Shown: one piece after another, positions 18,806 through 39,555 of the stretch
Numbering within the stretch: the first letter of the stretch is position 1
How the letters are laid out: every line of letters starts with the position of its first letter
Position numbers and translations under genes: made by a program
IMG/VR virus record: IMGVR_UViG_3300042505_000662
Location: 1 to 39,765 of that record
From: a virus
Strand: one strand, 5' to 3'
Length of the DNA stretch: 39,765 nt
The notes under the pieces: generated by a model
The model's input: only the letters and a program-made list of their open reading frames with translations
The model's database searches: none
Told to the model about the DNA's origin: nothing

Positions 18806-20988
18806 TAGGTTACTCCGCCGCCGGATACGACAAATGTTGGCGTAGCGCCGCCAGTTACGCAGAGCAATGTAGCAACGCCATATTGAGCAAGCGTTCTATT
18901 GCCCGTCGTAGCAGTTCCAGCAAGACGGAATGTTACGTTTGTACCTGCCGTTATTGTTTGGTTAGAGCCAGAGTTATTATAAATCGTAAATACATCACCA
19001 GCGCTGTATATCGACGCATTGACCGTCACGCCGCCAGTTGTGATTGAGATATGCTTGCCGACATCGCTTGTATCAGTTGGTGTATAAGCGCCTGACTTTG
19101 TAACTTGCGGAATATTTAAATAACCAAGCGTTCCGCTTGTTGGAAATGTTATAGATGTGTTAGCGGTTAATGTGCCTGTAAATGTATAGGCGCCAGACAT
19201 TGTAACGCTGCCGCCAATGGTAATTGTCGAAGAACCATTGTTGACGCCAGTGCCGCCTCTAGCGGAGGCTAATGTTCCAGAACTAATATTAGAAGCATTT
19301 GTTGTATCAGTCGTCGCTGATGTAGCTAAACCTGTAACACCTGCTGCTGGTAAGCCGGTGCAATTTGTCAGCGTTCCGCTTGTGGGGGTTCCAAGGATAG
19401 GCGTTACAAGCGTCGGGCTGGTAGCTAAAACATTACTGCCGGAGCCGGTGCTAGTGGTTACGCCAGTGCCGCCGTTTGCAACTGGCAAGGTTCCAGTAAC
19501 ACCCGTCGTAAGCGGTAAGCCTGTAGCGTTTGTCAGCGTTCCACTTGACGGCGTTCCTAATGCGCCGCCATTAACAACAAAAGCTCCAGCAGAGCCAGTA
19601 TTAACACCAAGCGCAGTAACGACGCCCGTGCCAGTTGTTACAGTTGAAGGCCCGGTTCCAGAGCCTCCACCTACAACAAGAGCATTTGCTGTAAGAGTAG
19701 CCGCAGGAACAACAACGCCTCCAGCAACGTTTGTATTGTTCCCTAATGCTGTTACAACGCCTGTGCCTGTCGTTGTGCCAGCTAGCGTGTTTGTTCCGCT
19801 GTAATACGTGATCTGACCAATGGTGCCGGTGCTAATTGTTCCTGTTGGAACAGCTGACCAAGAAAGAACGCCAGCAGTTGTGGAGGTCAGCGCATATCCA
19901 TTTGATGCAGGAGCATCAGTCGGTAACGTATAGGTTACAGCTGCTGTTGCATTTCCAGCCTGCAAAGTCGTTAAAAACGCGCTTGAGGCGTTAGCAAAAG
20001 CTAACTTGCCTGTTGTCGTTGATGTTTTACCAACTGTTGCTGTGTAAGTCGTTTTATCAAATGTAAATGATACGCTACCGGCCATTGTGCCAGTATCATT
20101 AAACTGAATATTCTTATCTGAGCCGCCCGGCGTAGAACCACCGCCACCGCCATTGGCCACCCAAGTTAATGCACCAAGACCATCAGTTGAAAGAACATAA
20201 CCATTAGTGCCATTTGAGGCGGGAAGCTGAAATATCGTCCCCGTGCCAGCTGCAGCAGCAGCTTTAATCGTAACAGAGCCTGATGTTGAACCATATAATA
20301 TAGCTACGCCATTATTACCGCCATTAGATCCAAGATTTATGGATGAAGTTGGCCCGGTAAAATATGTTTGGTCACTAAAGATATTAGAAGCATTCAGTAA
20401 AGGAACATTAGCGCCACTATTGCTAATATTATAAGTAGCAGCGGTTCCTAAACCTAAATTCGTTCTAGCAGTTGAGGCAGAATTTAAATCAGAAAGATTA
20501 TTTGTGGTCTTAGCAAAACTGCCATACCAAGATAATGTTCCAGATCCGTTAGTAACTAATGCGCTGCCACTAGCGCCATCGCTAGGCGGCAAATTATAGG
20601 TCACATTAGCTGTTGGATTGCCCGCAACGAATGATGTCGTATAGGAGCTTGAACCACTAGCTAATGTAATATTGCCGCTTGTGGTTCCAGCTACGCCAAA
20701 TGTCTGCGCCGCTGTAAACACATTAGGATAATTAAGTGTCGCTACCGTTCCATCCGTGGAAGGAAACACAAAAGTTGTATTGTCCGTTCCATTAAACGTC
20801 AGGCTATTGTTGACGTTAAAGGATTTTCCACTTGCGACGGTAACGACACCAGAGCCCACAACATATTGGCGAATTTGCTCAGCGGTTTTCTTAACGGGAC
20901 CTGAGTTGGCCGTTTCTACCGCCGGGAATATGTCAGTAGCTGCTACCGCATTACCTGCAGTAAGCTCACTGATTTTCTTATTCGCCAT
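18805..20988 (-). CDS. Long tail-fibre protein (727 aa)
   Basis: The N-terminus MANKKISELTAGNAVAATD is a well-known start of phage tail-fibre proteins. The body is repetitive: GTPTSGTLTNCTGLP and GTPSSGTLTNATGLP units, GVVTALG(N/V)NT units and VANGGTG motifs. The C-terminus (SAGDVFTIYNNSGSNQT...GVATLLCV) is the common fibre end domain without an S74 chaperone. It probably forms the trimeric shaft, with the next gene product as adhesin. Repeated motifs are also repeated at DNA level (for example near 19370 and 19540). Confidence 0.85.
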   Translation of the reverse strand: MANKKISELTAGNAVAATDIFPAVETANSGPVKKTAEQIRQYVVGSGVVTVASGKSFNVNNSLTFNGTDNTTFVFPSTDGTVATLNYPNVFTAAQTFGVAGTTSGNITLASGSSSYTTSFVAGNPTANVTYNLPPSDGASGSALVTNGSGTLSWYGSFAKTTNNLSDLNSASTARTNLGLGTAATYNISNSGANVPLLNASNIFSDQTYFTGPTSSINLGSNGGNNGVAILYGSTSGSVTIKAAAAAGTGTIFQLPASNGTNGYVLSTDGLGALTWVANGGGGGSTPGGSDKNIQFNDTGTMAGSVSFTFDKTTYTATVGKTSTTTGKLAFANASSAFLTTLQAGNATAAVTYTLPTDAPASNGYALTSTTAGVLSWSAVPTGTISTGTIGQITYYSGTNTLAGTTTGTGVVTALGNNTNVAGGVVVPAATLTANALVVGGGSGTGPSTVTTGTGVVTALGVNTGSAGAFVVNGGALGTPSSGTLTNATGLPLTTGVTGTLPVANGGTGVTTSTGSGSNVLATSPTLVTPILGTPTSGTLTNCTGLPAAGVTGLATSATTDTTNASNISSGTLASARGGTGVNNGSSTITIGGSVTMSGAYTFTGTLTANTSITFPTSGTLGYLNIPQVTKSGAYTPTDTSDVGKHISITTGGVTVNASIYSAGDVFTIYNNSGSNQTITAGTNVTFRLAGTATTGNRTLAQYGVATLLCVTGGATPTFVVSGGGVT

Positions 20989-28960: not shown

Positions 28961-29476
28961 CTATTCTGCGGCTTGCCTGGAAAAAACTGGATAATATGGG
29001 CGTCCGTTTTCGCGCTCCCATCTTTCAAGCCATGATGGCGGCTTAACTCTCTCACGAATAAAAAAATACGGATCGCGTGGCTTTTCACCTGGTTGCAATT
29101 TTCCATACTCAGGATCAAAATTTACGCCGCTTTTGAGTTCATCAAGCAACGCTTGAAATCGGATTTTCATTTCCTCGCGCTTGGCTTGCGGCATTTCGTA
29201 ACGAGGTAAACGAGGTATAGACTCATTTCGAAGCCGGACGCGCGTGGCTGCGTTATTTTGCGCAGAGGTATATACCTGGCCAGCACTAGGAATGAATGCG
29301 CTGTCCGTCCTTCCTAGCTCTATACAAGCGCGTTCTACATCCGATGCAGCACAAGGTTCCAAAGTTTCGCAATAAGCATGAACTTTCGCAGCCAGATCAC
29401 CCTCACCCAACGCCGACGAGGCGGGGAATTTCGTAAATAACCGAAGAAGCGCCGCTTGCTTGCGTTTCGTTTCCAT
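28961..29476 (-). CDS. Probable helicase-loader-like replication protein
   Basis: A 171-residue protein. The first part (KRKQAALLRLFTKFPASSALGEGDLAAKVHAYCETLEP) resembles the N-terminal helix bundle of phage P-like replication proteins and is followed by FIPSAGQVY. There is no ATPase motif. It is directly downstream of the O-like initiator and overlaps it by 74 bases, as lambda P follows O. It might recruit host DnaB helicase to the phage origin. Confidence 0.55.
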   Translation of the reverse strand: METKRKQAALLRLFTKFPASSALGEGDLAAKVHAYCETLEPCAASDVERACIELGRTDSAFIPSAGQVYTSAQNNAATRVRLRNESIPRLPRYEMPQAKREEMKIRFQALLDELKSGVNFDPEYGKLQPGEKPRDPYFFIRERVKPPSWLERWERENGRPYYPVFSRQAAE

Positions 29477-30233
29477 GTGCGTTTTCCAAATTTAACAGGG
29501 CTTTCGTAATGGCTGACATTTTCTCCGTCTTGTTAGGCCCTGCCCTAGCTTCGGAGCGCATCCATTCGGCTTTGAATCCTGTCCAGCCGTTAGCCATCAT
29601 GGCTTGCGCGGCGGCTTCTGGATCGCCGTATTCGCGGAATTGTTTGACAAGCCCCTTTGCTGAGCCTGCGGTAAGGGGAGATTTTTTAGCTCTGCGATGA
29701 GCGATTAAATCGGCAGCGACTTCAGCTGAAAGGCATTCGGTTAAAATTGATAACGGCTTTTGTTGAGCACTATTATTTATAGATACGTTAGTATCTATAA
29801 TATCTTTATCTACTCTTATCTTATCTAGCGTTACAGTGCGTTTCACTGCGTTACATTGCGTTACATCATCATTAAGTCTTTGGTTTTTTTGTCTTTCTCT
29901 ATAAGCGCGAACGCGGTCATTTGAGGTGTCATCTTCGCGTTTTGGCTGCCTTTTTTCCCATGTAACAAACTTGTCCGTTACAGTGATGTTACGTGCGTTA
30001 CATTGCGTTACAATGCGTTTCAATTGCGTTTCATCACAATCTAAATACTCAGCAAGGACCTCCAAATCGACGCCAGCAAACGATCCGCGATCCTCAGATT
30101 GAGAGGCTCGATCCATCAGCGCCCATATAAAGGAAACAACCAAGCTGGTTGGCACCTCAGCCTTTTTAGCTATCAATCGCCATTTTGGATCAGTTGGGGC
30201 GCCATGCCATGATCGGAACCATTGATTGCTCAT
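29403..30233 (-). CDS. O-like replication initiator, origin within its gene
   Basis: A 276-residue protein. The N-terminal winged-helix domain (MSNQWFRSWHGAPTDPKWRL; residues 1-95) is of the phage replisome organiser kind. A charged linker holds two similar peptide stretches, VTQCNARNITVT and VTQCNAVKRTVT, encoded by the two iteron clusters. The C-terminal domain (about 155-276) would contact the loader. In lambda the O gene holds the origin iterons in the same way. It overlaps the Dcm gene by four bases. Confidence 0.75.
   Translation of the reverse strand: MSNQWFRSWHGAPTDPKWRLIAKKAEVPTSLVVSFIWALMDRASQSEDRGSFAGVDLEVLAEYLDCDETQLKRIVTQCNARNITVTDKFVTWEKRQPKREDDTSNDRVRAYRERQKNQRLNDDVTQCNAVKRTVTLDKIRVDKDIIDTNVSINNSAQQKPLSILTECLSAEVAADLIAHRRAKKSPLTAGSAKGLVKQFREYGDPEAAAQAMMANGWTGFKAEWMRSEARAGPNKTEKMSAITKALLNLENAHGNETQASGASSVIYEIPRLVGVG
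29770..29827. other. AT-rich tract of the putative origin, with perfect inverted repeat
   Basis: An AT-rich run directly next to the first iteron cluster. It contains a perfect 9-bp inverted repeat, TATAGATAC (29778-29786) and GTATCTATA (29791-29799) with a 4-base centre, and several TTATC words. A likely DNA unwinding element. Its place within a coding region is compatible with a lambda-type origin. Confidence 0.55.
29828..29867 (+). repeat. Iteron cluster 1 (four 10-bp units)
   Basis: GCGTTACAGT, GCGTTTCACT, GCGTTACATT and GCGTTACATC start at 29828, 29838, 29848 and 29858, an exact 10-base period that puts each site on the same DNA face. These are probable binding sites for the O-like initiator. 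The period is not a multiple of three, so it is not a simple codon repeat. Confidence 0.7.
29975..30035 (+). repeat. Iteron cluster 2 (four clear and two degenerate units)
   Basis: GCGTTACATT, GCGTTACAAT and GCGTTTCAAT, then GCGTTTCATC, start at 29995, 30005, 30015 and 30026; weaker copies begin at 29975 (CCGTTACAGT) and 29986 (ATGTTACGT). The same word as in cluster 1, about 110 bases apart, in the same orientation. Together they form the probable replication origin. Confidence 0.68.
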
Positions 30234-31072
30234 GCGGCCTCTCTTGCCGCAATAGCGCGGCCTATTAATTCTGGAATTTGTGGAACAACTGCATTGCCTA
30301 GAGCTTTAAGTCTGTGTGTCCTAGCGGGAACCCCATTAGCCACTCGACCCACATCGGGTTCAACTGCCCAGGTGTCGCGTCCAACATTCCGCAAGTCGCC
30401 ATATCGTGCAATTCTATAGTCCAGCCTTGCTCCTGCTTCCTCTTGATGCGTTTGCTTTCTATTTTGCATCCATGCCGAGCCATTGCAGCAGTAGGCGTCG
30501 GAAACATTTTTACAGCTGTCGCTAAACCATCTCCGCTTGTTTTTGACAGCCCCTTCCTGTTGTAATTCCCATTGACTGTCGGGGTAGGCCACAATCCAGA
30601 CTCTATCTCTGCGGTGAGGGGCGCCAATGGCTGAAGCTGGTATGCAATGCCATTCAGCATCATACCCGAACGAGGCCAACGTTCCGAGAACTTGGTCAAG
30701 CCCTCTACTAAGCAATGCTGAGACGTTCTCCACGATGACGTATCGTGGTCGAAACTCGCCAATAATTCTGGCGTATTCAAACCATAAGCCACTGCGCTCG
30801 CCTTCAATCCCTGCGCGTTTTCCTGCACAACTGATGTCTTGACATGGGAAGCCTCCGCAAATCGCATCAACGGTAATTCCATCTGCGGTAAGTCGCTCTG
30901 CGGTGATTGTTCTAACGTCATCGTAGATAGGCACCTGGGGCCAGTGTTTAGCTAAAACTTTTTGGCAATAAGGCTCAATCTCGCAAAACGCTACGGTCTT
31001 GAATGCGCCGCTACGCTCAAGACCGAGCGAAAAACCGCCAATGCCACTGAATAAATCCAAGAGGCGCAACAT
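30230..31072 (-). CDS. C5-cytosine DNA methyltransferase
   Basis: A 280-residue protein from ATG 31072 (TAATG overlap with the DnaA-like gene). The SAM motif LDLFSGIGGFSLGL (5-18), catalytic PCQ (76-78, in CGGFPCQDIS), ENV (115-117), APHRRDRVW (151-159) and the C-terminal motif RLKALGNAVVPQ (254-265) are all intact. The target-recognition part is short (about 165-250). It probably protects phage DNA from restriction. A second reading frame covers most of this gene (see 30298-30921). Confidence 0.92.
   Translation of the reverse strand: MLRLLDLFSGIGGFSLGLERSGAFKTVAFCEIEPYCQKVLAKHWPQVPIYDDVRTITAERLTADGITVDAICGGFPCQDISCAGKRAGIEGERSGLWFEYARIIGEFRPRYVIVENVSALLSRGLDQVLGTLASFGYDAEWHCIPASAIGAPHRRDRVWIVAYPDSQWELQQEGAVKNKRRWFSDSCKNVSDAYCCNGSAWMQNRKQTHQEEAGARLDYRIARYGDLRNVGRDTWAVEPDVGRVANGVPARTHRLKALGNAVVPQIPELIGRAIAAREAA
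30298..30921 (-). CDS. Protein-like reading frame embedded in the methyltransferase gene (207 aa)
   Basis: A stop-free frame of 207 codons, shifted from the Dcm frame and wholly inside it. The translation looks like a real protein: TSSWRTSQHCLVEGL, WPRSGMMLNGIAYQL, GLWPTPTVNGNYNRKG, SKTSGDGLATAVK and LNPMWVEWLMGFPLG. I recall these motifs from phage proteins encoded next to, or fused with, cytosine methyltransferases. No ribosome site is evident; ATGs at 30921, 30882 or 30867 are possible starts, with 30867 closest to the start of the motif-bearing part. Function unknown. Alternatives are a frameshift fusion with Dcm, or a relic of a former separate gene. Confidence 0.5.
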   Translation of the reverse strand: MTLEQSPQSDLPQMELPLMRFAEASHVKTSVVQENAQGLKASAVAYGLNTPELLASFDHDTSSWRTSQHCLVEGLTKFSERWPRSGMMLNGIAYQLQPLAPLTAEIESGLWPTPTVNGNYNRKGLSKTSGDGLATAVKMFPTPTAAMARHGCKIESKRIKRKQEQGWTIELHDMATCGMLDATPGQLNPMWVEWLMGFPLGHTDLKL

Positions 31073-31629
31073 TAAGCGCCCCAATAACGATGAGCGAGGC
31101 TTTCAACTGTAAGAGCCCGCTGCATTTGATTAACTTTGAGATGGAAAGCTGTGTCGGCGCGCATCATCTTTTGAATCTTTTTGACGCCGTGAAGGATTGT
31201 GGTGTGATCCCGCTTGCCGATTGCCAGCCCTATTTCAGGCAATGACTTAAGGCTGCATTGACGGGATAAATAGAAGATAACGTGGCGAGGCTCGGTTAGA
31301 TCCTTAGTGCGCCTGCCTGATAATAAATCTATCCGGCTGATGCCGTAGATTTGAGAAACGTAAGAAACGATCTCATTGATTTTAGGAAGGCGCGTTTCGC
31401 CCTCATAGGTTTTAAATAGTTCTTCTGGCGTCTGATTAGCCGGAAATGAAATAACATTATAATAAGGGTCTAATTGTATAATATCTCTTGGTTTTTGTTT
31501 TTGTTTTTTTACTTTTACTTTCCTGACTTTTGGCGACGGTAAAGAAACAACATTGGGTCGGTTTACTAAACCCATACGCGCCCGGACAGCTTTGTAATGC
31601 TCAACTAACTCAAACGCATGCATATTCAT
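31072..31629 (-). CDS. DnaA C-terminal domain (domain IV) protein
   Basis: A 185-residue protein. Residues 95-185 match the DnaA domain IV helix bundle, with the signature GKRDHTTILHGVKKI that reads the DnaA box. The AAA+ ATPase domain of DnaA is absent. The N-terminal half is basic (VRKVKVKKQKQKPRD). It may bind DnaA boxes to compete with host DnaA or to mark an origin. It begins by ATGA overlap and is followed by Dcm. Confidence 0.85.
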   Translation of the reverse strand: MNMHAFELVEHYKAVRARMGLVNRPNVVSLPSPKVRKVKVKKQKQKPRDIIQLDPYYNVISFPANQTPEELFKTYEGETRLPKINEIVSYVSQIYGISRIDLLSGRRTKDLTEPRHVIFYLSRQCSLKSLPEIGLAIGKRDHTTILHGVKKIQKMMRADTAFHLKVNQMQRALTVESLAHRYWGA

Positions 31630-31964
31630 TTCAACACCTCAGTTACTTTAAATCCATAAGTAAGCTCAGCCGCCTTCTTGCGAAGCCGATAAGCAGCGTC
31701 CTTTGCAGTCCCTGTAGATTTCACGTCCTCAACGATTTGAACGCGCTTGTGATCAATCCAATAAGAAAAGTCCGCAGTGTAAGTGCAAAACAACTTTCCT
31801 TGGATGAATGTTTTAAAAGCAGGCTGTAATTGTAAGTCGTAAATATCCCCGGCGCGCTCCAGCATCTTGAGATCAAGGTAGCGCTTCATCTCTTTTTTGC
31901 TGGCGAACAAAATGCCATCAGCAGTTCGCTCACTCGCCGGAGAAACTTTGAATCGGGCGATCAA
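31626..31964 (-). CDS. DUF1064-like phage nuclease (Holliday-junction-resolvase-like)
   Basis: A 112-residue protein with FASKKEMKRYLDLKMLERAGDI, then LQPAF, YTADFSYW and VEDVKSTGT. The E...D-F...E-D-x-K pattern is the PD-(D/E)xK nuclease core seen in DUF1064. Family members are thought to resolve phage DNA junctions. Full length. Confidence 0.8.
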   Translation of the reverse strand: MIARFKVSPASERTADGILFASKKEMKRYLDLKMLERAGDIYDLQLQPAFKTFIQGKLFCTYTADFSYWIDHKRVQIVEDVKSTGTAKDAAYRLRKKAAELTYGFKVTEVLK

Positions 31965-31976
31965 TCACGCCCCCCA

Positions 31977-32300
31977 TCAATCTTTCTCACCAGCCAAAGC
32001 ATCAGCCGCGCTAACGAGATTCTTACCAACCCAGGATTTTGCTTCTGTGATTGCCTTTTCATGGCGCAGGGAATTGATACCCTTGTCGATTTCACTTTGA
32101 TAAGCCCTCTCTAATTTCTCATAGACAGAGACGAACAAATCTTGCGGTGGGCGATAAAGAAGTCCCCATAAAGTCCCGTATGGGACACCATGCCTTCTAC
32201 TCAACCGACGCATCGCATTTACTCTGTCGCCTGGTCCCGTAGACTCACGATTGACCATCAACTTCACCCATCTCTGGGCGTCCTCAACTGCTTTACTCAT
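31977..32300 (-). CDS. Phage early protein, unknown (107 aa)
   Basis: Start ATG 32300 has GGAG at the right distance; the upstream extension to 32405 would read through the terminator region. The stretch TGPGDRVNAMRRLSRRHGVPYGTLWGLLYRPP looks like an HTH and recurs in alphaproteobacterial phage proteins as I recall. Possibly DNA binding. It is the first gene after the terminator at 32438-32465. Confidence 0.7.
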   Translation of the reverse strand: MSKAVEDAQRWVKLMVNRESTGPGDRVNAMRRLSRRHGVPYGTLWGLLYRPPQDLFVSVYEKLERAYQSEIDKGINSLRHEKAITEAKSWVGKNLVSAADALAGEKD

Positions 32301-32437
32301 TACAGACTCCAGCAAGTTCTTTTTGTTTTTGGAGCAAACGGTTTCATGCTTTTGTAGGAGCATGAAAACTTGCCCTTCACATTTTCCATTCGTGACGCTT
32401 GGCAATGCCGCCGCCCGATTGGTTGAAACAAAACTCC

Positions 32438-32465
32438 AAAAAAATGCAGGGACCGAAGCCCCCGC
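32438..32465 (-). terminator. Strong rho-independent terminator within the leftward early operon
   Basis: On the minus strand GCGGGGGC-TTCG-GTCCCTGC forms an 8-bp stem (two G-U) with a stable UUCG loop, followed by A and seven T. It lies 60 bases downstream of the second early gene and about 140 bases upstream of the next one. A terminator here implies read-through control, as for lambda tR1. Confidence 0.82.
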
Positions 32466-32484
32466 AAAGTTTGGGAGGAAAGCA

Positions 32485-32503
32485 CCCGCACTTGCCTTGC
32501 GGG
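32485..32503 (-). promoter_or_regulatory. Hairpin just upstream of the early terminator
   Basis: CCCGCA and TGCGGG form a 6-bp stem with a 7-base loop, and a further short palindrome CAGGCGAGCCTG lies at 32505-32516. Position between an early gene and a terminator is that of a nut/boxB-type antitermination site. No clear boxA is seen. Confidence 0.4.
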
Positions 32504-32527
32504 ACAGGCTCGCCTGGGGGGCGAAAC

Positions 32528-32740
32528 TCAGTGTTTCAGACGACGCAACATCTCAATCGAAGCAGCCTGATAATCAGAGGCTTCAATTTCGGAGAGCGTA
32601 TATTCGGATGTTTGAATGGCTGCGGCGGCGTAAGCCGCGAAACGGTCAGAGCGAATGTTGAGGTCATTAACAGCGCGCAATGCAATCGCCATGAGCTCAG
32701 ATAGAGTTAAAGGATGCTCTGATTGTTGCGCACAAGTCAT
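32528..32740 (-). CDS. Small early protein (70 aa)
   Basis: A soluble helical acidic protein (LTLSELMAIALRAVNDLNIR; AYAAAAIQTSEYTLSEIEASDY), second gene of the leftward transcript, coupled to cro by ATGA. By position it could be an antiterminator or a replication-control protein, but nothing in its sequence proves it. Confidence 0.6.
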   Translation of the reverse strand: MTCAQQSEHPLTLSELMAIALRAVNDLNIRSDRFAAYAAAAIQTSEYTLSEIEASDYQAASIEMLRRLKH

Positions 32741-32949
32741 GCCGCATCCTCATTTTCTGGATGAGGATAAATATCTGGACGAATTTCGTGTCTTGGTATG
32801 TTAAAAACGCGCTCAATTTCTAAAACGCGCTCTACAGGTATTTTCTGACGAAACCCCCAAGAATAAACGGTTGGCAAAGGCAGATTTAGGACCTCTGCCA
32901 TTTTGCGCGCGCCGCCAGCTTGATTAATGATTTGAGAAACTGATTTCAT
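32737..32949 (-). CDS. Cro-like repressor (YdaS-type HTH)
   Basis: This gene encodes 70 residues with an HTH (GGARKMAEVLNLPLPTVYSWG) and ending in a polar tail. The pattern (SQIINQAGGARKMAEVL) is the YdaS/Cro family, DNA-binding proteins at the lysis-lysogeny switch. It is divergent from the CI-type gene and shares the operator region 32957-32999. The -10 lies only six bases from its ATG, so its mRNA may lack a leader. Confidence 0.75.
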   Translation of the reverse strand: MKSVSQIINQAGGARKMAEVLNLPLPTVYSWGFRQKIPVERVLEIERVFNIPRHEIRPDIYPHPENEDAA

Positions 32950-32955
32950 ACCGCA

Positions 32956-32984
32956 ATCTATGCATATTGCAGAGATAATGTCAA
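32956..32984 (-). promoter_or_regulatory. Promoter of the leftward early operon (Pcro)
   Basis: On the minus strand, -35 TTGACA (32984-32979) and -10 ATAGAT (32961-32956) are 17 bases apart, with a TG one base before the -10. The operator 32957-32975 overlaps the -10 and 32981-32999 overlaps the -35, so repressor binding would block it. Confidence 0.72.
32957..32975. promoter_or_regulatory. Operator copy 1 (cro side)
   Basis: TCTATGCATATTGCAGAGA fits the partial palindrome TCTnTGCAnnnTGCAnAGA. It overlaps the -10 of Pcro. Copies of the same element occur at 32981, 33777 and 33811. Confidence 0.68.
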
Positions 32985-32999
32985 TGCGACTTGCATAGA
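32981..32999. promoter_or_regulatory. Operator copy 2 (cro side)
   Basis: TCAATGCGACTTGCATAGA fits the same palindromic pattern with two deviations (A for T at position 3, G for A at position 8). Its centre lies 24 bases from copy 1, a spacing that allows cooperative binding of repressor dimers. It overlaps the -35 of Pcro. Confidence 0.65.
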
Positions 33000-33012
33000 T
33001 AATTTATGCTTA

Positions 33013-33750
33013 ATGTTGCATATGAAAGTGGATTCTTCGATGGACATTGCTCACCGGCTTAGGCTGGCAAGGGAGCGAAAGGGCTATAAAAGCGCGCGAG
33101 AAGCCGCCGCCGCCATGGGTGCGCCTTATGGCACTTATGCAGGCCATGAAAACGGAAACAGGGGAATTAAACCAGCTGACATAGCCAGATATGCTAAATT
33201 TTTTAAGGTGTTACCTGCTTGGTTACAATTTGGAGAAGAAAATTCTCTTTCTTTAAATAAAACTGATCAAATTACCGCAAACCTTGGCGAACCTATTGAC
33301 ATTAAAAATGTTAAAGTAATAGGCACGACCCAGGCCGGGACGTGGACGGAATTTGAGAATTTTGAAGACGACGGCCTTGATGGCCTTAAAATTCCGGCTG
33401 TTCCTGGAAAATGGTCGAATTTGCCGCAATTTGCATACAAGGTTCGCGGCGCATCTATGGATTTAGACCGTATATATGACGGTGATTTCCTTATTTGCGT
33501 TCCTTATTTCGATGCTCGCGCCGATATAACCGAAGGCGACCGAGTAGTGATTGAGCGCGTACGAAATTCAGCAATTGAGCGATCTGTTAAACAAATAGAA
33601 ATTCACGGCAAAGAAATACATTTTTGCCCTAGATCCAGCTTAGCCCACTTTTTGCCCATTAAAGTAAAAGTTAATCGGCACATGCGTGAAGCAGATGACA
33701 CTGAAGTTAGGCTTGTTGCGCTAGTAATAGGCCGATGGTCGCCATTTTAA
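33013..33750 (+). CDS. CI-type repressor with S24 autocleavage domain
   Basis: A 245-residue product from ATG 33013; ATGs at 33022 or 33040 are also possible and no ribosome site decides. Residues 13-70 form a lambda-type HTH (YKSAREAAAAMGAPYGTYAGHENG). The C-terminal S24/LexA-like domain has the cleavage pair Ala108-Gly109 (TTQAGTW), nucleophile Ser148 in GASMD, and a probable catalytic Lys193. It would keep the prophage silent and be cut after RecA activation by DNA damage. It lies alone on its strand between two pairs of operators. Confidence 0.88.
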   Translation: MLHMKVDSSMDIAHRLRLARERKGYKSAREAAAAMGAPYGTYAGHENGNRGIKPADIARYAKFFKVLPAWLQFGEENSLSLNKTDQITANLGEPIDIKNVKVIGTTQAGTWTEFENFEDDGLDGLKIPAVPGKWSNLPQFAYKVRGASMDLDRIYDGDFLICVPYFDARADITEGDRVVIERVRNSAIERSVKQIEIHGKEIHFCPRSSLAHFLPIKVKVNRHMREADDTEVRLVALVIGRWSPF

Positions 33751-33776
33751 ATAAAAATATCAAATAGTTATAAATA

Positions 33777-33795
33777 TTTCTGCATTTTGCATATT
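33777..33795. promoter_or_regulatory. Operator copy 3 (rightward operon)
   Basis: TTTCTGCATTTTGCATATT matches TCTnTGCAnnnTGCAnAGA in the two TGCA half-sites and spacer, weaker at the edges. It lies just after the repressor stop. Confidence 0.6.
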
Positions 33796-33801
33796 TTATT
33801 G

Positions 33802-33829
33802 TTGCATAAGTCTATGCATTATGCATAAT
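33802..33829 (+). promoter_or_regulatory. Promoter of the rightward early operon
   Basis: -35 TTGCAT (33802-33807) and -10 CATAAT (33824-33829), 16 bases apart, directly upstream of the first small gene (start 33866). Operator 33811-33829 covers the spacer and -10. Confidence 0.55.
33811..33829. promoter_or_regulatory. Operator copy 4 (rightward operon)
   Basis: TCTATGCATTATGCATAAT, the best-looking palindromic core of the four (TGCA-TTA-TGCA). It overlaps the -10 of the rightward promoter. Centre 34 bases from copy 3. Confidence 0.68.
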
Positions 33830-33865
33830 ACCTCTATGCCGGATCGCAGCCGGATGGAGAGTCAA

Positions 33866-33970
33866 ATGCTTACAGAAATCCAATTAGCCTGCCTGCTGTT
33901 TGCCGCACCAAGCATTTTAGTCGGCACAATCTTTGTCATCGGTTCTTATGTTTTTGGAGGCCAGCAATGA
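33866..33970 (+). CDS. Tiny membrane protein (34 aa), first gene of rightward operon
   Basis: GGATGGAGAG precedes the ATG at good distance. The 34 residues include one hydrophobic helix (LACLLFAAPSILVGTIFVIGSY), so this is a single-span membrane peptide. It stops by ATGA with the next gene. Function unknown; early membrane peptides of this kind can act in superinfection exclusion or defence inhibition. Confidence 0.5.
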   Translation: MLTEIQLACLLFAAPSILVGTIFVIGSYVFGGQQ

Positions 33971-34134
33971 ACAAACATTTTGTTTCATCAATAGCAATAA
34001 AATGCGCCACAGACCCAATTAATGATTGGACGCCAACTGATGAATTTTCACTAATTAATCAGGGTTGGGGTGCTTGGTTTTCTGTGTTTTTTAAAAACAC
34101 TCATCAAGCTGGCTTATTTAGGGGCCAGCAATGA
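33967..34134 (+). CDS. Small hypothetical protein (55 aa)
   Basis: ATGA overlap with the genes on both sides (33967 and 34131). The protein has several Trp and Phe residues (INDWTPTDEFSLINQGWGAW). No family recognised. The unbroken coupling supports that it is translated. Confidence 0.5.
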   Translation: MNKHFVSSIAIKCATDPINDWTPTDEFSLINQGWGAWFSVFFKNTHQAGLFRGQQ

Positions 34135-34433
34135 CCCTTCCAGAAACAGTTTTTGTTCTGACCACTTGGAAAGATCAAGAATACTTTATTGAGACCCGCC
34201 CAGGTTACTCATTAAATGACGCCTTTGAAGATATTGCTTCCGGCACAATCACAGACATTCGCGCAGTTTATGTCGCCTCAAACGGATCGTTTGAAGATGA
34301 AAGCGACCAGATTTGCGACTTACTGATTGAGCGCATCCGCGACGGTCACATGATCGACTACTCAGCTAAACGTTTTATCGAATGGTGCTCAAAAACACCG
34401 CTTGAATGGGACTCTTTGGAGGACGCGGCATGA
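34131..34433 (+). CDS. Small acidic early protein (100 aa)
   Basis: Strongly acidic (about 20 Asp/Glu), starting MTLPETVFVLTTWKDQEYFIETRPG, mixed alpha/beta. No motif is known to me. Small acidic proteins in early operons may mimic DNA and inhibit host nucleases, but this is only a possibility. Confidence 0.65.
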   Translation: MTLPETVFVLTTWKDQEYFIETRPGYSLNDAFEDIASGTITDIRAVYVASNGSFEDESDQICDLLIERIRDGHMIDYSAKRFIEWCSKTPLEWDSLEDAA

Positions 34434-34669
34434 ACAGCACGTTTGTTTCAATCCATTACGAAGCGCCTGTTTATCTCACAATTGGCACCGATACGCTTTC
34501 ATCAATGTTTGGCGTGAAATCACAGTCAGACGTTACAGCGCCAATAAATTTTCATCTGCCTTACGAATACTCAGAAAGACTAAAGCGCGCAGTCGCAGCC
34601 TTCAACAAGGAAATGGGCGTTCCTTATTACCAAAACACTGATGAACAAGAATTAGAAGCAGCAGAATGA
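34430..34669 (+). CDS. Small early protein (79 aa)
   Basis: ATGA start at 34430, chosen over the upstream 34406 start because the preceding gene stops there. It reads MNSTFVSIHYEAPVYLTIGTD then an acidic end (NTDEQELEAAE). Fifth of the chain of coupled unknown genes when counting from the promoter, or fourth after the membrane peptide. No family recognised. Confidence 0.6.
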   Translation: MNSTFVSIHYEAPVYLTIGTDTLSSMFGVKSQSDVTAPINFHLPYEYSERLKRAVAAFNKEMGVPYYQNTDEQELEAAE

Positions 34670-34875
34670 AATCTCAATATGAAAGCGCGCTTGAGATGGC
34701 GGCGTTTAACCGACGCCAAGCTCACGCAATCAGAAAGCTTGAGCGTGTTCTTCAACCACAATGGATAAACGAAGAAACTGACTCCAAGCAAACAGCCAAT
34801 CGGTTTTTAAGAGAAGCAATCAACTGGATTCAGATAGCAAAGCTACAAAGACAACGGAGTAAAGCGTATGGCTAA
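34666..34875 (+). CDS. Small basic helical protein (69 aa)
   Basis: Basic and helical (FNRRQAHAIRKLERVLQ; ANRFLREAINWIQIAKLQRQR). Coupled by ATGA upstream and by an 8-base overlap to the annealing-protein gene. Possibly nucleic-acid binding. Function unknown. Confidence 0.6.
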   Translation: MKSQYESALEMAAFNRRQAHAIRKLERVLQPQWINEETDSKQTANRFLREAINWIQIAKLQRQRSKAYG

Positions 34876-35449
34876 GCAACTAGATAAGAGAATAAACGAT
34901 ATTCTTGCAAAGTATCACGACAATCCACGCGCAGCCCTTTGGGATTGCCATGGCACTTGGGTAATTTATCACAAAGACGTTGAGCTTATGGCTGCACGTG
35001 CTGGCATTAAGTTTGATGCGCCAACTATTATTGAAAATAACAGCGCCAGCAAAACCGTAGCTATATGCGTTACCGGCGCATTAGGCGATCATTTAGAATG
35101 GTCTATTGGCGAAGCTGCGCCCGGCAATAATAAAAATAGCTACCCATACGCAATGGCTGAAAAGCGCGCCAAGGATCGCGTAGCTTTGAAGCTGCTTGGC
35201 CTACATGGCTTTATTTATTCAGAAGATGAAATGAATGAAACGCCACCACCAAGGGAAAGTGATATTCAAAGTGTAGAACTTAAGATGCTCTTAGAAGCAT
35301 TAAACTTTGCATCTACGCCTAAAGAACTACAGGATTTCAAGAACAAGAATCTGGAAATTATTGACGATCTTTCCATTGAAGAAGGAAAGAGATTTGTCAA
35401 AGCCTACAACGATCATCGCGCTTCATTAAACAAAAAGGAAGCTGCGTAA
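34868..35449 (+). CDS. Probable single-strand annealing protein (Rad52/ERF-like)
   Basis: A 193-residue protein. The core TWVIYHKDVELMAARAGIKFD, then VTGALGD and YPYAMAEKRAKDRVALKLLGLHG, has the shape of Rad52/ERF-type annealing proteins, and proteins with the last motif sit next to YqaJ exonucleases in alphaproteobacterial phages. It directly precedes the exonuclease gene (shared base 35449), the usual order of a Red-like recombination pair. The C-terminal 60 residues are helical and acidic, a possible partner-binding tail. Confidence 0.65.
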   Translation: MAKQLDKRINDILAKYHDNPRAALWDCHGTWVIYHKDVELMAARAGIKFDAPTIIENNSASKTVAICVTGALGDHLEWSIGEAAPGNNKNSYPYAMAEKRAKDRVALKLLGLHGFIYSEDEMNETPPPRESDIQSVELKMLLEALNFASTPKELQDFKNKNLEIIDDLSIEEGKRFVKAYNDHRASLNKKEAA

Positions 35450-36066
35450 TGATTGAGATCATTAACTGCGAACAAGGAACGCCTGAGTGGCTTACCCATC
35501 GGGCAGGAATCCCAACAGCAAGCGAGTTTAAAACCCTACTGATGAAGGGCAAAGGCGGCGCAGAAAGTGAAACGCGCAAGTCTATGGTCTATACAAAAGC
35601 CTATGAGCTTTATTCTGGTAAATTTTCAGAAAGCTACACAAACGCCGATATGCAGCGCGGGCATGAAATGGAGCCTGACGCTCGTAATATGTATGCGTTT
35701 AGATACGACGCCGATCCAATAATAGTTGGATTTGTAAAGAATGGCCGTAAAGGCGCAAGCCCAGACGCCCTTCTTAGTAATGATGGCATTTTAGAAATTA
35801 AATCACATAAGCCATCGGTTCTTATCCCAATCATTCAAGCTGATGTGTTTCCTGCTCAGCATATGCCGCAATGCCAAGGGCTTTTGTGGGTATGCGAACG
35901 CGAATGGTTAGACATTGCTTGCTATTGGCCGGGCTTACCATTGTTCGTCAAACGCATAACGCGAGACGAGGCTTTCATTAGCAATTTGTCTGGTGAAGTA
36001 GACCGATTCAATGATGAAGTAGATGCGTTAGTTGAAAACCTTAAGAGCTACAGCGAGGCAGCATGA
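35449..36066 (+). CDS. YqaJ/lambda-exonuclease-type recombination nuclease
   Basis: A 205-residue protein with the YqaJ fold: GTPEWLTHRAGIPTASEF (10-27), GHEMEP (71-76), catalytic Asp106 (SPDALL), and E-I-K (Glu116, Lys118 in GILEIKSH). It resects double-stranded DNA ends so that the annealing protein can join homologous strands. Full length. It overlaps the next gene by ATGA. Confidence 0.9.
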   Translation: MIEIINCEQGTPEWLTHRAGIPTASEFKTLLMKGKGGAESETRKSMVYTKAYELYSGKFSESYTNADMQRGHEMEPDARNMYAFRYDADPIIVGFVKNGRKGASPDALLSNDGILEIKSHKPSVLIPIIQADVFPAQHMPQCQGLLWVCEREWLDIACYWPGLPLFVKRITRDEAFISNLSGEVDRFNDEVDALVENLKSYSEAA

Positions 36067-36320
36067 CAACTAGATTTGATGTTTTATCACCGCGTCCAGG
36101 CAAAGACGGGAAAACATATTGGCTAAAGGTTGGATCACAATTTCCATCAAGAGACGGCGCAGGCTGGACTATTAAATTAGACGCACTGCCCCTGCCAGAT
36201 AAAGAAGGGAATATTTGGCTTTCATGCAAAGAGCCAAAAGAAAAAGACGCATCATTTTCCAAGCCAGCGCCCCGCGGATCTCTGCGCGACCAATTAGATG
36301 ATGACATACCATTCGGCTGA
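36063..36320 (+). CDS. Small protein with SSB-like C-terminal tail (85 aa)
   Basis: Short beta-rich protein (RFDVLSPRPGKDGKTYWLKVGS; AGWTIKLDALPLP) ending in DDDIPFG, which matches the acidic SSB tip (D-D-D-I-P-F) that binds repair enzymes. It may be a small ssDNA-binding protein or an SSB-tip mimic in the recombination cassette. It lies between exonuclease and NinB genes. Confidence 0.7.
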   Translation: MTTRFDVLSPRPGKDGKTYWLKVGSQFPSRDGAGWTIKLDALPLPDKEGNIWLSCKEPKEKDASFSKPAPRGSLRDQLDDDIPFG

Positions 36321-36328
36321 GGCTTTCA

Positions 36329-36715
36329 ATGCCAAACTATATCCCGCTAAACAATGAAGTGGATAGAGAAAGAGTCAAAGGGTGGGTTGCTAAAGCCCCG
36401 CCCGGCACTCTCATCTCATTTAAAAAGCCCTGCAGATCAGCTGATCAAAATAAGCTGCTTTGGCAGAGGCTTGGTGAAATAGCGCAGTCAATGGAATGGG
36501 CTGGCAAACGTTTATCCAGTGAAGATTGGAAAGACTTATTCACCGGAGCAATTCGCAAGTGTGATGTTGTGCCGGGTCTTGAAGGCGGCGTTGTTGTTTT
36601 AGGACTCCGCACAAGCTCAATGTCACGCGCCGAAATGACAAGCTTGCTTGATTATATCAGTGCGTTTGCAGCTGAGCATGGAATTAAATTGTCTGATGAG
36701 GAGTTAGCAGCATGA
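36329..36715 (+). CDS. ninB: NinB-like recombination protein
   Basis: A 128-residue protein with CRSADQNKLLWQRLGEIAQ and a later helix (SMSRAEMTSLLDYISAFAAEHGI), which matches the NinB/Orf family. These proteins bind ssDNA/junctions and help recombination with RecBCD/RecFOR. Full length and in its usual company of exonuclease and annealing protein. Confidence 0.85.
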   Translation: MPNYIPLNNEVDRERVKGWVAKAPPGTLISFKKPCRSADQNKLLWQRLGEIAQSMEWAGKRLSSEDWKDLFTGAIRKCDVVPGLEGGVVVLGLRTSSMSRAEMTSLLDYISAFAAEHGIKLSDEELAA

Positions 36716-36990
36716 GAGTAAGCGCGTTGTTTGATGACCCGGAAGTTAGGAGAATTGTATCTGAAGAAGAAAAAAACGCCTTTCAAAGAATAAGCAGGCT
36801 CACAAACACTCAAAAAAAGGTTCTACAATTAATCATAGACGGAATGCCAAATAAAATAGCGGCTCATGAGCTTGGTATTAGTCAAAGAACAGTTGAAAAC
36901 CATCGACAAGAATTGATGGATAGAACTGAATGCAAAACATTTGCTGAGCTTGTTCGTCTTTCAATATTGGCTGATGTTGAGCTTTTATGA
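36712..36990 (+). CDS. LuxR-type HTH protein without sensor domain
   Basis: A 92-residue protein. Residues 30-88 are a complete LuxR-type HTH (LTNTQKKVLQLIIDGMPNKIAAHELGISQRTVENHRQ in parts), preceded by about 28 charged residues. No receiver or ligand domain. It is late in the early operon, where lambda has Q, so it could switch on late genes or excision; both are inference. Confidence 0.8.
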   Translation: MRVSALFDDPEVRRIVSEEEKNAFQRISRLTNTQKKVLQLIIDGMPNKIAAHELGISQRTVENHRQELMDRTECKTFAELVRLSILADVELL

Positions 36991-37373
36991 CTGACGTAGG
37001 CACGACTCCGCGTAAAAATTTAACGCCTTCACAGCGCTTAAAGCTGTTTGAGGCGCATAATGGAATATGTGGAATCTGCACTAGGGAAATTAGAAGCGGC
37101 GAGGCTTGGATAGATGAGCATATGCGGGCGCTTGCATTAGGTGGGACAAATGATCTTGAAAATAGAAGGCCAGTCCATGTGGCGTGTGCGGCGGCTAAAA
37201 CGTCAGACGATATTGCTTCGATTGCAAAAGCAAAACGCCAGAAACGTGCGTCTCTGGGAATTAAAAAGGAAGGGCAGAAAATTCAATCACGTGGGTTTGA
37301 TCGGGTTGAAAAACATCGTGCAATAGACAAAAGCGTATTGCCAGATTTGCCAAGGAGAGGGCTGTATCAATGA
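36987..37373 (+). CDS. HNH endonuclease
   Basis: A 128-residue protein with zinc Cys pairs (Cys28/Cys31 and Cys67) around the HNH core: DEH (43-45), Asn55/59, His64 in RPVHVAC. A basic C-terminal tail follows. Phage HNH enzymes cut DNA near packaging or act in homing. Here it lies between the HTH protein and the Xis-like gene, not by terminase, so a role in recombination or host DNA cutting is equally possible. Confidence 0.85.
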   Translation: MTDVGTTPRKNLTPSQRLKLFEAHNGICGICTREIRSGEAWIDEHMRALALGGTNDLENRRPVHVACAAAKTSDDIASIAKAKRQKRASLGIKKEGQKIQSRGFDRVEKHRAIDKSVLPDLPRRGLYQ

Positions 37374-37756
37374 ATGATTTAGATACCCCTTTAAGCCTAC
37401 GGGAAGCCGCCGAAACGCTACTGCGCGGATTAGTAACGGCTTCTACGCTTAAAGCCGCCGCAGAACGTGGCGAACTTGCAGTTGAGCGATTAGGACGTAG
37501 AATCGTAGTTACGCCTAAAGCTATAGCGGATTGGAGAGAGTTGTGTCGCGCACCAGTAAAGGCCCAAGGCTATACCTCAAACCAGCCCGCAGAGAAGGCG
37601 AGGAGCCGCTCTGGATTATACGAGACGGACGAAGATCAATCAGCACAGGATGCAGCATTAGCAATCGCGCGGATGCTGAAAGAAGGCTCGCGGAATATAT
37701 CGGGAGAAAATATCAACCGGCGAGACGCGAACGTGCACTTTCTGAAATCAAGTTAA
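37370..37756 (+). CDS. Excisionase-like DNA-binding protein
   Basis: A 128-residue protein. Residues 1-60 form a MerR/AlpA-type winged helix (SLREAAETLLRGLVTASTLKAAAERGEL; VTPKAIADWREL). The rest (from residue 58) is Ser/Ala-rich and is read in a different frame from the integrase, which starts at 37543 inside this gene. It would bend attL/attR and direct excision. The overlap of 214 bases with the integrase gene is far longer than translational coupling requires. Confidence 0.7.
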   Translation: MNDLDTPLSLREAAETLLRGLVTASTLKAAAERGELAVERLGRRIVVTPKAIADWRELCRAPVKAQGYTSNQPAEKARSRSGLYETDEDQSAQDAALAIARMLKEGSRNISGENINRRDANVHFLKSS

Positions 37757-38631
37757 GAGACGTAATATCAATTTATTTAAAAGACGTAGCGCCGCGACAA
37801 GCTAACATTAAAAAAGTTGGCGAACGCGCAGAGCGCTTGTTGCAATTCTTTGGTGGCAAAACATTAGATCAAGTTAATGGCGGTTTATGCCGTCAATATG
37901 TTGAATGGCGAGGCAATGACGGGGGATCACGGCGTGATCTGCAAGACCTAGCTGCAGCTATTAATCATCATCACAAAGAAGGCCATCACCGCGAGTTAAT
38001 TCGGATAGTTTTACCGCCCGCCGGTCCATCGCGCGTTAGGTGGCTAACTAGGAGCGAGATTGCGCGACTCTTATGGGTTTGCCTTACGACGCGAGAACTA
38101 CAATCTGGTCACAAAACCAAAAAGCGCCCGTTTATCCATTTGACGCGATTTATTATGATTGGGGTTTACACCGGCTCCCGCCCAGGGGCGATTTTGGGCC
38201 TTTCTTGGCACCAGCAAATAGGCAGCGGGTATGTAGACCTTGACCGGGGCTTGATCTACCGAAAGGCGGTTGGATCGAGGGAAACCAACAAGCGCCAGCC
38301 ACCCGTTCCCATATCTCCGAACCTTAATCGGCTACTCAGGCTGTGGGCGCGATCAGATAACCGACACGGGCCTCTTGTGCGCTTTTCTGGCAGGCAGGTT
38401 AAGTCGGTTAAGACCGCCCTAAAACGCGCTGTCGAGCTTGCTGGACTCGATACAAGCGTTACCGCTTATACCCTGCGTCACACCACTGGATCATGGCTGA
38501 CTCAGAAGGGCGTTAGCACTCGTAAAGTGGCTGAGATTTTAGGAACCAGCGAGGCCATGATTGAGCGCCATTATGGCCATCTAGCGCCGGATCATTTGCG
38601 GGATGAAGTTGCTGCGATAGGACGGAAATAG
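37543..38631 (+). CDS. int: Tyrosine site-specific integrase
   Basis: A 362-residue product from GTG 37543, chosen because GGAGAG lies just before it; a TTG at 37531 would add four residues. The N-terminal arm-binding part (RTSKGPRLYLKP...SISTGC) is followed by a helical core-binding domain (about 65-165) and the catalytic domain. Catalytic Arg213 (TGSRPG), Arg312-His313 (YTLRHTTGS) and nucleophile Tyr344 (ERHYGH) are visible; the usual LGH is LGT, as seen in some relatives. It lies 65 bases from attR and would recombine attP with attB in the tRNA. Confidence 0.93.
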   Translation: MSRTSKGPRLYLKPARREGEEPLWIIRDGRRSISTGCSISNRADAERRLAEYIGRKYQPARRERALSEIKLRDVISIYLKDVAPRQANIKKVGERAERLLQFFGGKTLDQVNGGLCRQYVEWRGNDGGSRRDLQDLAAAINHHHKEGHHRELIRIVLPPAGPSRVRWLTRSEIARLLWVCLTTRELQSGHKTKKRPFIHLTRFIMIGVYTGSRPGAILGLSWHQQIGSGYVDLDRGLIYRKAVGSRETNKRQPPVPISPNLNRLLRLWARSDNRHGPLVRFSGRQVKSVKTALKRAVELAGLDTSVTAYTLRHTTGSWLTQKGVSTRKVAEILGTSEAMIERHYGHLAPDHLRDEVAAIGRK

Positions 38632-38641
38632 AACATCAATG

Positions 38642-38660
38642 TGTCGCATATCTGTCGCAA
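38642..38660 (+). promoter_or_regulatory. Probable integrase arm-type sites, right (P' arm)
   Basis: TGTCGCAT (38642) and TGTCGCAA (38653), 11-base period, same orientation as the pair at 143-160. They lie between the integrase stop and the attR core. Confidence 0.6.
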
Positions 38661-38696
38661 GCTGTTGACAATATTTTAGCAAGTATTTGAAAAGAT

Positions 38697-38743
38697 TGGT
38701 GGGCCGGGAGGGACTCGAACCCCCAACCAGACCGTTATGAGCG
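38697..38743 (-). other. attR core within the intact tRNA
   Basis: Identical to 12-58 over 47 bases. The phage brings in the 3' part of the tRNA, so that the host tRNA is whole after integration. Confidence 0.93.
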
Positions 38744-38772
38744 GCCGGCTCTAACCATTGAGCTACCGGCCC
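38697..38772 (-). tRNA. tRNA with anticodon CAU (probably Met elongator)
   Basis: 76 bases including an encoded CCA. Acceptor stem GGGCCGG/CCGGCCC, D arm with AGCTC, anticodon stem GGCCG/CGGTC with loop CTCATAA (anticodon CAU) and T arm GGGGG/CCCTC with TTCGAGT loop all form. An elongator Met tRNA is most likely; a lysidine-modified Ile tRNA (also CAU) cannot be excluded. Its 3' 47 bases come from the phage. Confidence 0.9.
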
Positions 38773-38795
38773 CGAAACCTCTCGGGGACCCACGT

Positions 38796-38823
38796 CCTAT
38801 ACTGCTTTGGCCTTACCGGGCAA
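38796..38823 (-). promoter_or_regulatory. Possible tRNA promoter
   Basis: On the minus strand -35 TTGCCC (38823-38818) and -10 TATAGG (38801-38796), 16 bases apart, end 23 bases before the tRNA 5' end. Weak to moderate match to sigma-70. Confidence 0.4.
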
Positions 38824-38898
38824 TATCTCTCCACGACAAAATCTGTATGGTGTGGAAGCCGATCCCCATATCCCGCACCAATTATAAAGGAACCAAAA

Positions 38899-39555
38899 TT
38901 GGCGCTCACAGAAGAGGATAAACGCATCGCTATTGTCTCCGCCGCACAGGAAATGGATCGGCAGGGACTTAATCACGGATCGACTGGCAATCTCTCGATC
39001 CGCCATGCGGAAATGATGCTGATTACGCCTAGTGGCGTTGAAAGCCATAAGCTTAAGCCCGAACTCATCGCGTTGATGCCCCTTGATAACGACACCGGGT
39101 CATTCGAAGGACCCCTCTCGCCCTCAAGTGAGTGGCGATTTCATCTTGATATTCTGCGCACACGTCGCGACGTCAATGCGATTACCCATATGCACTCAAC
39201 CTACGCCACGACGCTTGCGGTTTTAAACAGAGATATTCCTGCAGTTCATTATATGATTGCAGCCTTTGGCGGTCCAACCGTTCGTTGCGTTGGCTACGCG
39301 CCTTATGGAACCAGCGAACTCTCTCAACTCGTTCTTGACGGGCTCAATAATCGAGATGGCGTTTTACTGGCCAATCATGGCGCTATTGTCACTGGTCCGA
39401 ATATGCAGCGCGCTTTATGGCGCGCCTTAGAGTTGGAAAATCTTGCACGGATTTATTATCAAGCAATACTAGTAGGAGAACCAATTATTTTATCTGACGC
39501 TGAAATTTATCAAACTGTAGAGCGCTTTAAGAATTATGGACCTGCACAGGCGTGA
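38899..39555 (+). CDS. Class II aldolase (host), possible methylthioribulose-phosphate aldolase
   Basis: The TTG start at 38899 follows AAAGGAA at good distance and opens MALTEEDKRIAIVSAA; the frame upstream runs into the tRNA. A 218-residue class II aldolase: NHGSTGNLSIR (phosphate-binding), MLITPSG, HMHSTYATTLA (two metal His) and the third metal His in LLANHGAI. Fuculose-phosphate aldolase-type enzymes cleave to dihydroxyacetone phosphate and an aldehyde. Next to mtnA it is probably the Ald2/DrdA-type enzyme for 5-(methylthio)ribulose-1-phosphate or 5-deoxyribulose-1-phosphate. MtnB, a dehydratase of the same superfamily, is an alternative. Confidence 0.82.
   Translation: MALTEEDKRIAIVSAAQEMDRQGLNHGSTGNLSIRHAEMMLITPSGVESHKLKPELIALMPLDNDTGSFEGPLSPSSEWRFHLDILRTRRDVNAITHMHSTYATTLAVLNRDIPAVHYMIAAFGGPTVRCVGYAPYGTSELSQLVLDGLNNRDGVLLANHGAIVTGPNMQRALWRALELENLARIYYQAILVGEPIILSDAEIYQTVERFKNYGPAQA

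Follow-up and report, generated by a model that had tools for sequence, protein, structure and literature searches.

To our knowledge, long same-strand overlaps coding two selected proteins have rarely been demonstrated in bacteria and phages. The small polypeptide of the methyltransferase M.EcoHK31I is coded in another frame inside the gene of the large polypeptide. According to PMC3404938, which cites Lee et al. (1995), this enzyme (YGGCCR) consists of two polypeptides, the large one with motifs I-VIII and X and the small one with only motif IX; as far as the description given there goes, the predicted recognition domain is placed in the large subunit. The same source presents M.AquI (CYCGRG) as a split C5-methyltransferase with motifs I-VIII in the alpha chain and the distal recognition region, motif IX and motif X in the beta chain. 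In the literature searched, M.EcoHK31I was the only published enzyme found with an arrangement matching the one analysed here, and no account of such an overlap in phages was met.

Here, we analyse a stretch of viral DNA of 39,765 nucleotides (the window), in which a second open reading frame, beta, lies entirely within the dcm gene, alpha, in frame +1 relative to it, i.e., one base out of register (Table 1). We read the locus as a two-polypeptide C5-methyltransferase of the M.EcoHK31I layout, coded in overlapping frames, and put the probability of this reading at about 0.84. As in M.EcoHK31I, the large chain has motifs I-VIII and X, and its gene encloses the small chain in a different reading frame; motif IX is predicted in the small chain by way of intermediate relatives. 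Set against the description of that enzyme in PMC3404938, the middle of the window alpha is predicted to be disordered and the C-terminal half of beta looks like a recognition region; moreover, no restriction enzyme partner is recognised among the tested neighbours of the locus. M.AquI differs in that the window alpha keeps motif X and the window beta is fully nested and ends before motif X. With canonical single-chain Dcm and M.HhaI the window alpha shares the catalytic core and motif X, but the main frame is without recognition domain and motif IX.

The 207 codons of the second frame were found exactly where the first-pass annotation had placed them, with all of its quoted peptides present. 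The frame was also said to begin at the PCQ motif, which is incorrect, as the ORF starts about 24 codons before it. Counted from a TTG, the dcm ORF covers 30230-31084, while ATG 31072 is the more likely start; it overlaps the stop of the upstream gene as TAATG. This upstream gene (31072-31629) has no PHROG match. The surroundings (29403-39555) show a temperate phage layout, with a replication initiation protein, a Holliday junction resolvase, a repressor, a RecE-like exonuclease and an integrase.

Table 1. Features of the nested methyltransferase locus in window coordinates.
Feature	Position	Strand	Description	Basis
alpha (dcm)	30230..31072	-	C5-cytosine methyltransferase large polypeptide, 280 aa from ATG 31072	PF00145, phrog_363
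beta	30298..30921	-	second-frame ORF, 207 codons, ATG 30921 to stop at 30298	
alpha residues 1-164	30581..31072	-	catalytic core, motifs I-VIII (DLFSGIGG, GGFPCQ, ENV, RRDRVWIV)	AF2, Foldseek
alpha residues 165-239	30356..30580	-	variable linker, predicted disordered, over beta C-half	AF2, conservation
alpha residues 252-280	30233..30319	-	motif X (RLKALGNAVVPQ) helices	AF2; conserved in 67 genes
likely beta start	30919..30936	-	AGGTG (30936-30932), 10-nt spacer, ATG 30921-30919	sequence
beta residues 48-110	30592..30780	-	overprinted N-half (SFDHDTSSWRTSQ...WPRSGMMLNGIAYQLQPL)	over alpha motifs V-VIII
beta residues 111-145	30487..30591	-	WPTPT ... FPTPT blocks	start of predicted target-recognition region
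beta residues 187-201	30319..30363	-	LNPMWVEWLMGFPLG, predicted motif IX	conservation; in-frame counterpart in single-chain relatives

A conserved main protein alone can make a shifted frame look conserved. For this reason, every test used synonymous-codon shuffles of alpha as the null model, in which the alpha protein and its codon use are kept. In the window, none of 200 shuffles of dcm keeps the second frame open (4.2 stops expected, none seen). Against a profile built without the window, the second frame reaches 305 bits, the maximum of the 200 shuffles being 150, and all nine held-out real genes exceed each of their 200 shuffles in beta profile score. The explanation that the second frame is no gene, and only looks open and conserved as alpha's conserved protein keeps the DNA similar, does name a contributing effect: shuffles of alpha still average 21-112 bits against the beta profile, and raw tblastn E-values for beta are inflated for this reason. 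The stop counts contradict it nevertheless. Loci chosen by beta contain four second-frame stops versus 303 expected. Since choice by beta biases this count, 80 further loci were chosen by the alpha protein alone. All of them have beta, and the stops breaking the second frame in relatives, for which the first-pass annotation had asked one to look, amount to 25 in the overlap where 281 are expected; the +2 frame of the same two locus sets has 946 and 754 stops. A subset of 67 non-redundant genes taken from these 80 loci has no +1 stop between alpha residues 91 and 250; the stops that it does contain fall close to the beginning of beta, at its end or beyond it.

Conservation within these 67 genes agrees with the stop counts. 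Similarity over beta residues 51-100 exceeds that of synonymous shuffles with z values of 34-57, and the highest value (z = 74) falls on WVEWLMGFP, a segment with conservation scores of 5.72 in beta, 3.76 in alpha and 0.37 in shuffles. The two PTP blocks, WPTPT and FPTPT, score 1.76 and 3.01 in beta versus 1.16 and 1.11 in alpha, and the alpha linker, at -0.7 to 1.4, does not exceed beta in the same intervals. In actinophages, the beta frame also stays open beyond the end of alpha. The second frame is a genuine coding frame with protein-level constraint in both frames, as had been suspected from their protein-like appearance. Chance and mirror conservation from the dcm frame are ruled out by the synonymous shuffles, and a second frame that is no gene is extremely improbable.

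Searches for beta gave 295 phage records and, among viral contigs, at least 597 candidate stretches. Genome contigs contributed 321 stretches, among them some from Pseudomonas, Acinetobacter, Paenibacillus, Spirochaetia and Planctomycetota, and a few plasmids carry beta as well. The first-pass annotation is borne out in that homologues are widespread in phages. Pfam and NCBIfam gave no match to the protein, and its PHROG match is phrog_1008, at 1.7e-28. PHROG 1008 ("DNA methyltransferase", category other) also holds second "DNA methylase" frames of actinophages and a nested ORF of Paenibacillus larvae phages; its annotation is silent on the status as an overlapping-frame subunit and on which motif is held. 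None of the 278 loci examined, for which up to 80 top-ranking loci of each scan were kept, has a stand-alone beta; 276 carry the dcm catalytic core, and in the remaining two the contig begins inside the gene. Within this scope we rejected beta as a free-standing phage protein, and the proposal of a second gene later copied elsewhere in other phages is not supported. Across the 276 loci with an alpha core, which are not all independent as some occur in two sets, 266 have the beta N-half at +1, whereas motif IX occupies +1 in 255 and the alpha frame in 11. Annotators mostly give one product for the locus. Gp56 of Paenibacillus larvae phage Honeybear corresponds to the nested ORF; it was added by hand as "not called by any programs".

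Alpha matches PF00145 at 5.7e-49 and phrog_363 at 5.8e-86, and has motifs I, IV (PCQ), VI (ENV) and VIII in one fold. It had been credited with all C5-methyltransferase motifs, which does not hold: the match to M.HhaI ends after motif VIII both in sequence and in the AF2 model, and the Pfam match covers profile positions 2-179 of 324. Block means of pLDDT in this model are 79-98 up to residue 140 and 67-72 near residues 141-164, and Foldseek aligns it to M.HhaI with an E-value of 1e-14 over about 167 columns. Values below 50 occur over residues 168-173, 175-227 and 229-239, which are coded over the beta C-half; the motif X helices are predicted confidently. Judged by the Pfam match and the AF2 linker, the canonical motif IX and recognition domain are absent from the alpha chain. 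Given the end of the M.HhaI match and the low pLDDT over residues 168-239, alpha lacks the DNA-recognising small domain. A conserved alpha segment, "EPDVGRVANGVP", gives a weak alignment with motif IX, at 13.9 bits for IX and X together, and might be a degenerate motif IX kept in alpha.

The missing part is predicted to reside in the C-terminal half of beta, whose WPTP blocks and LNPxWVEWLMGFP would represent the Dcm recognition domain and motif IX ("LNPMWVEWLMGFP"). The evidence comes from relatives in which the same domain is read in other arrangements. In single-chain viral relatives (L324-L336), the alpha frame holds motifs I-VIII, PTP blocks, RRLNPAFSEWM and then motif X; a profile of window-type betas detects this part of the alpha frame with E-values down to 2.4e-11, and Pfam does not recognise these C-halves. 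A locus of Ca. Bandiella reads RLNPDWVEWLMGFPSSWTESGSRRQRLMVLGNAVVP in one frame, matches positions 2-323 of both PF00145 and TIGR00675, and shows LNPDWVEWLMGFP at motif IX, with a gapless alignment to the canonical motifs IX-X. An AquI-like layout, with an alpha that ends after motif VIII and a beta that holds both IX and X, was found in phages phiBT1, Camperdownii, Samy, Heather and Jumbo and in a Spirochaetia MAG; loci of this type include L004, L005, L200, L313 and L314. The layout shared by the phiBT1, Camperdownii and Samy relatives resembles that of M.AquI as far as PMC3404938 describes it. Betas of the AquI-like phages match the C-terminal part of phrog_116, the family matched by E. 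coli Dcm, with E-values of 2e-13 to 1e-7. The window and most loci have the EcoHK31I-like layout, with motif X in alpha and IX in beta.

The motif IX assignment rests on these intermediates because direct comparison of the window beta with canonical enzymes is not significant: HHalign against a three-sequence canonical methyltransferase set gave no significant match, and a 19-member canonical HMM did not find motif IX in the window beta. PDB sequence searches with beta and with the beta alignment gave no match, and the AF2 model of beta alone (pLDDT 59, pTM 0.27) is too poor for fold reading. The product, to which the first-pass annotation had assigned no function, is now narrowed to a predicted DNA-recognition and motif IX subunit of the methyltransferase.

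Overprinting, as originally proposed for the second frame, is retained for its N-half and abandoned for its C-half. Over the first half of the overlap, the canonical catalytic motifs belong to alpha, and thus the beta N-half, located over motifs V-VIII and with no other known source, is taken as the partner that was overprinted. Over the second half, it is beta that codes for the recognition region together with motif IX, which makes the alpha linker the putative overprinted partner: as judged from these sequence comparisons, the older frame here is that of beta, whose C-half would be Dcm's own domain, displaced. The C-half does have counterparts outside the +1 frame, namely in the alpha frame of single-chain relatives. 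The N-half matches no solved structures or Pfam families and has no homologue outside the overlap as far as searched. Viral contigs L324-L336 keep a short +1 ORF with the beta N-half over motifs V-VIII, and the frame in which their C-terminal domain is read changes near the PTP-coding blocks. Constraint on the N-half persists in the single-chain relatives: in each of the 11 tested, the real gene exceeds all of its shuffles, which suggests that the N-half is needed in its own right. It is possible, though we lean slightly against it, that the N-half is truly overprinted and needed itself and that the tandem PTP-coding blocks let the C-terminal domain swap frames. In that case, single-chain, AquI-like and EcoHK31I-like enzymes would be states between which a single gene family moves, with DNA specificity possibly changing.

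How beta is expressed bears on a further explanation, in which beta is not initiated separately and a programmed frameshift joins the alpha core to the beta C-half into a single-chain Dcm. Such a fusion would restore the canonical order of motifs I-VIII, recognition domain and motif IX, a layout that the single-chain relatives indeed have. The beta N-half, however, lies upstream of any sensible shift point and is strongly constrained, also in the single-chain forms, where a shift-only product does not need it; furthermore, a +1-shift fusion in the window would be without motif X. An in-frame ATG at the position found in the window (-68/-65 from GGFPCQ) together with a Shine-Dalgarno match occurs in 26 of 66 genes versus 11 expected, an enrichment that moderately favours separate initiation. 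On balance, expression by frameshifting is unlikely. An ATG at -215 in one subfamily was not counted as a conserved beta start, since alpha itself starts there (MN...).

Just as improbable is a beta that serves as a separate protein with its own job, e.g., a regulator or an anti-restriction factor, and merely shares DNA with dcm. The N-half, with neither solved-structure nor Pfam match, would suit such a protein, the more so as it persists where the C-half has joined alpha. Against this stand the lack in alpha of the very domain that the beta C-half provides, the exchange of that domain between frames in relatives and the absence of any stand-alone beta from the best 80 loci per scan. The two-polypeptide enzyme is supported by the same exchange of topology and by the 11 loci of the 276 with a beta-type motif IX in the alpha frame.

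In such an enzyme, alpha would bind S-adenosylmethionine and carry motifs I-VIII with the catalytic PCQ loop and the closing helix of motif X, its middle forming a disordered linker. Beta would initiate at its own ATG inside alpha and bring an N-terminal domain, the target-recognition region and motif IX. Both chains, translated from the same mRNA, are expected to assemble into one enzyme that would methylate a specific cytosine site. Since none of the neighbouring genes tested could be recognised as a restriction gene, the enzyme is most likely an orphan methylase for phage self-protection.

Although the overlap is conserved in hundreds of phages and across many phyla of bacteria, its second frame is dropped by gene callers. 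Many phage "cytosine methylases" in databases may thus be half enzymes. Alpha-only entries of this kind could look inactive if cloned alone (cf. the annotation of phiBT1 gp9.1, below), and the search for their specificity would be directed at the wrong chain. Members of the family further form a natural series in which the origin and the resolution of a split enzyme and of an overlapping gene can be studied.

Some individual loci deserve mention. In phiBT1 (L005), gp9.1 (1805-2852) is annotated as "DNA methylase may be inactive", and the recognition region is provided, along with motifs IX and X, by a +1 ORF that carries no annotation. In Mycobacterium phage OfUltron (gp75/gp76, L312, 1291-2206), the alpha core passes from one frame into another at about 1815, and the beta frame moves by an equal step, which fits a single indel affecting both proteins. 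On the Paenibacillus polymyxa plasmid pAP1 (L316, 711-2243), alpha is 511 codons long and there are several PTP blocks; the +1 frame has two motif IX segments of the beta type (1501-1779 and 1894-1995), which gives the impression of a duplicated C-half. Elsewhere in the window, a 195-codon ORF (19217-19804, + strand) is located in antisense to a 727-codon gene at 18805-20988.
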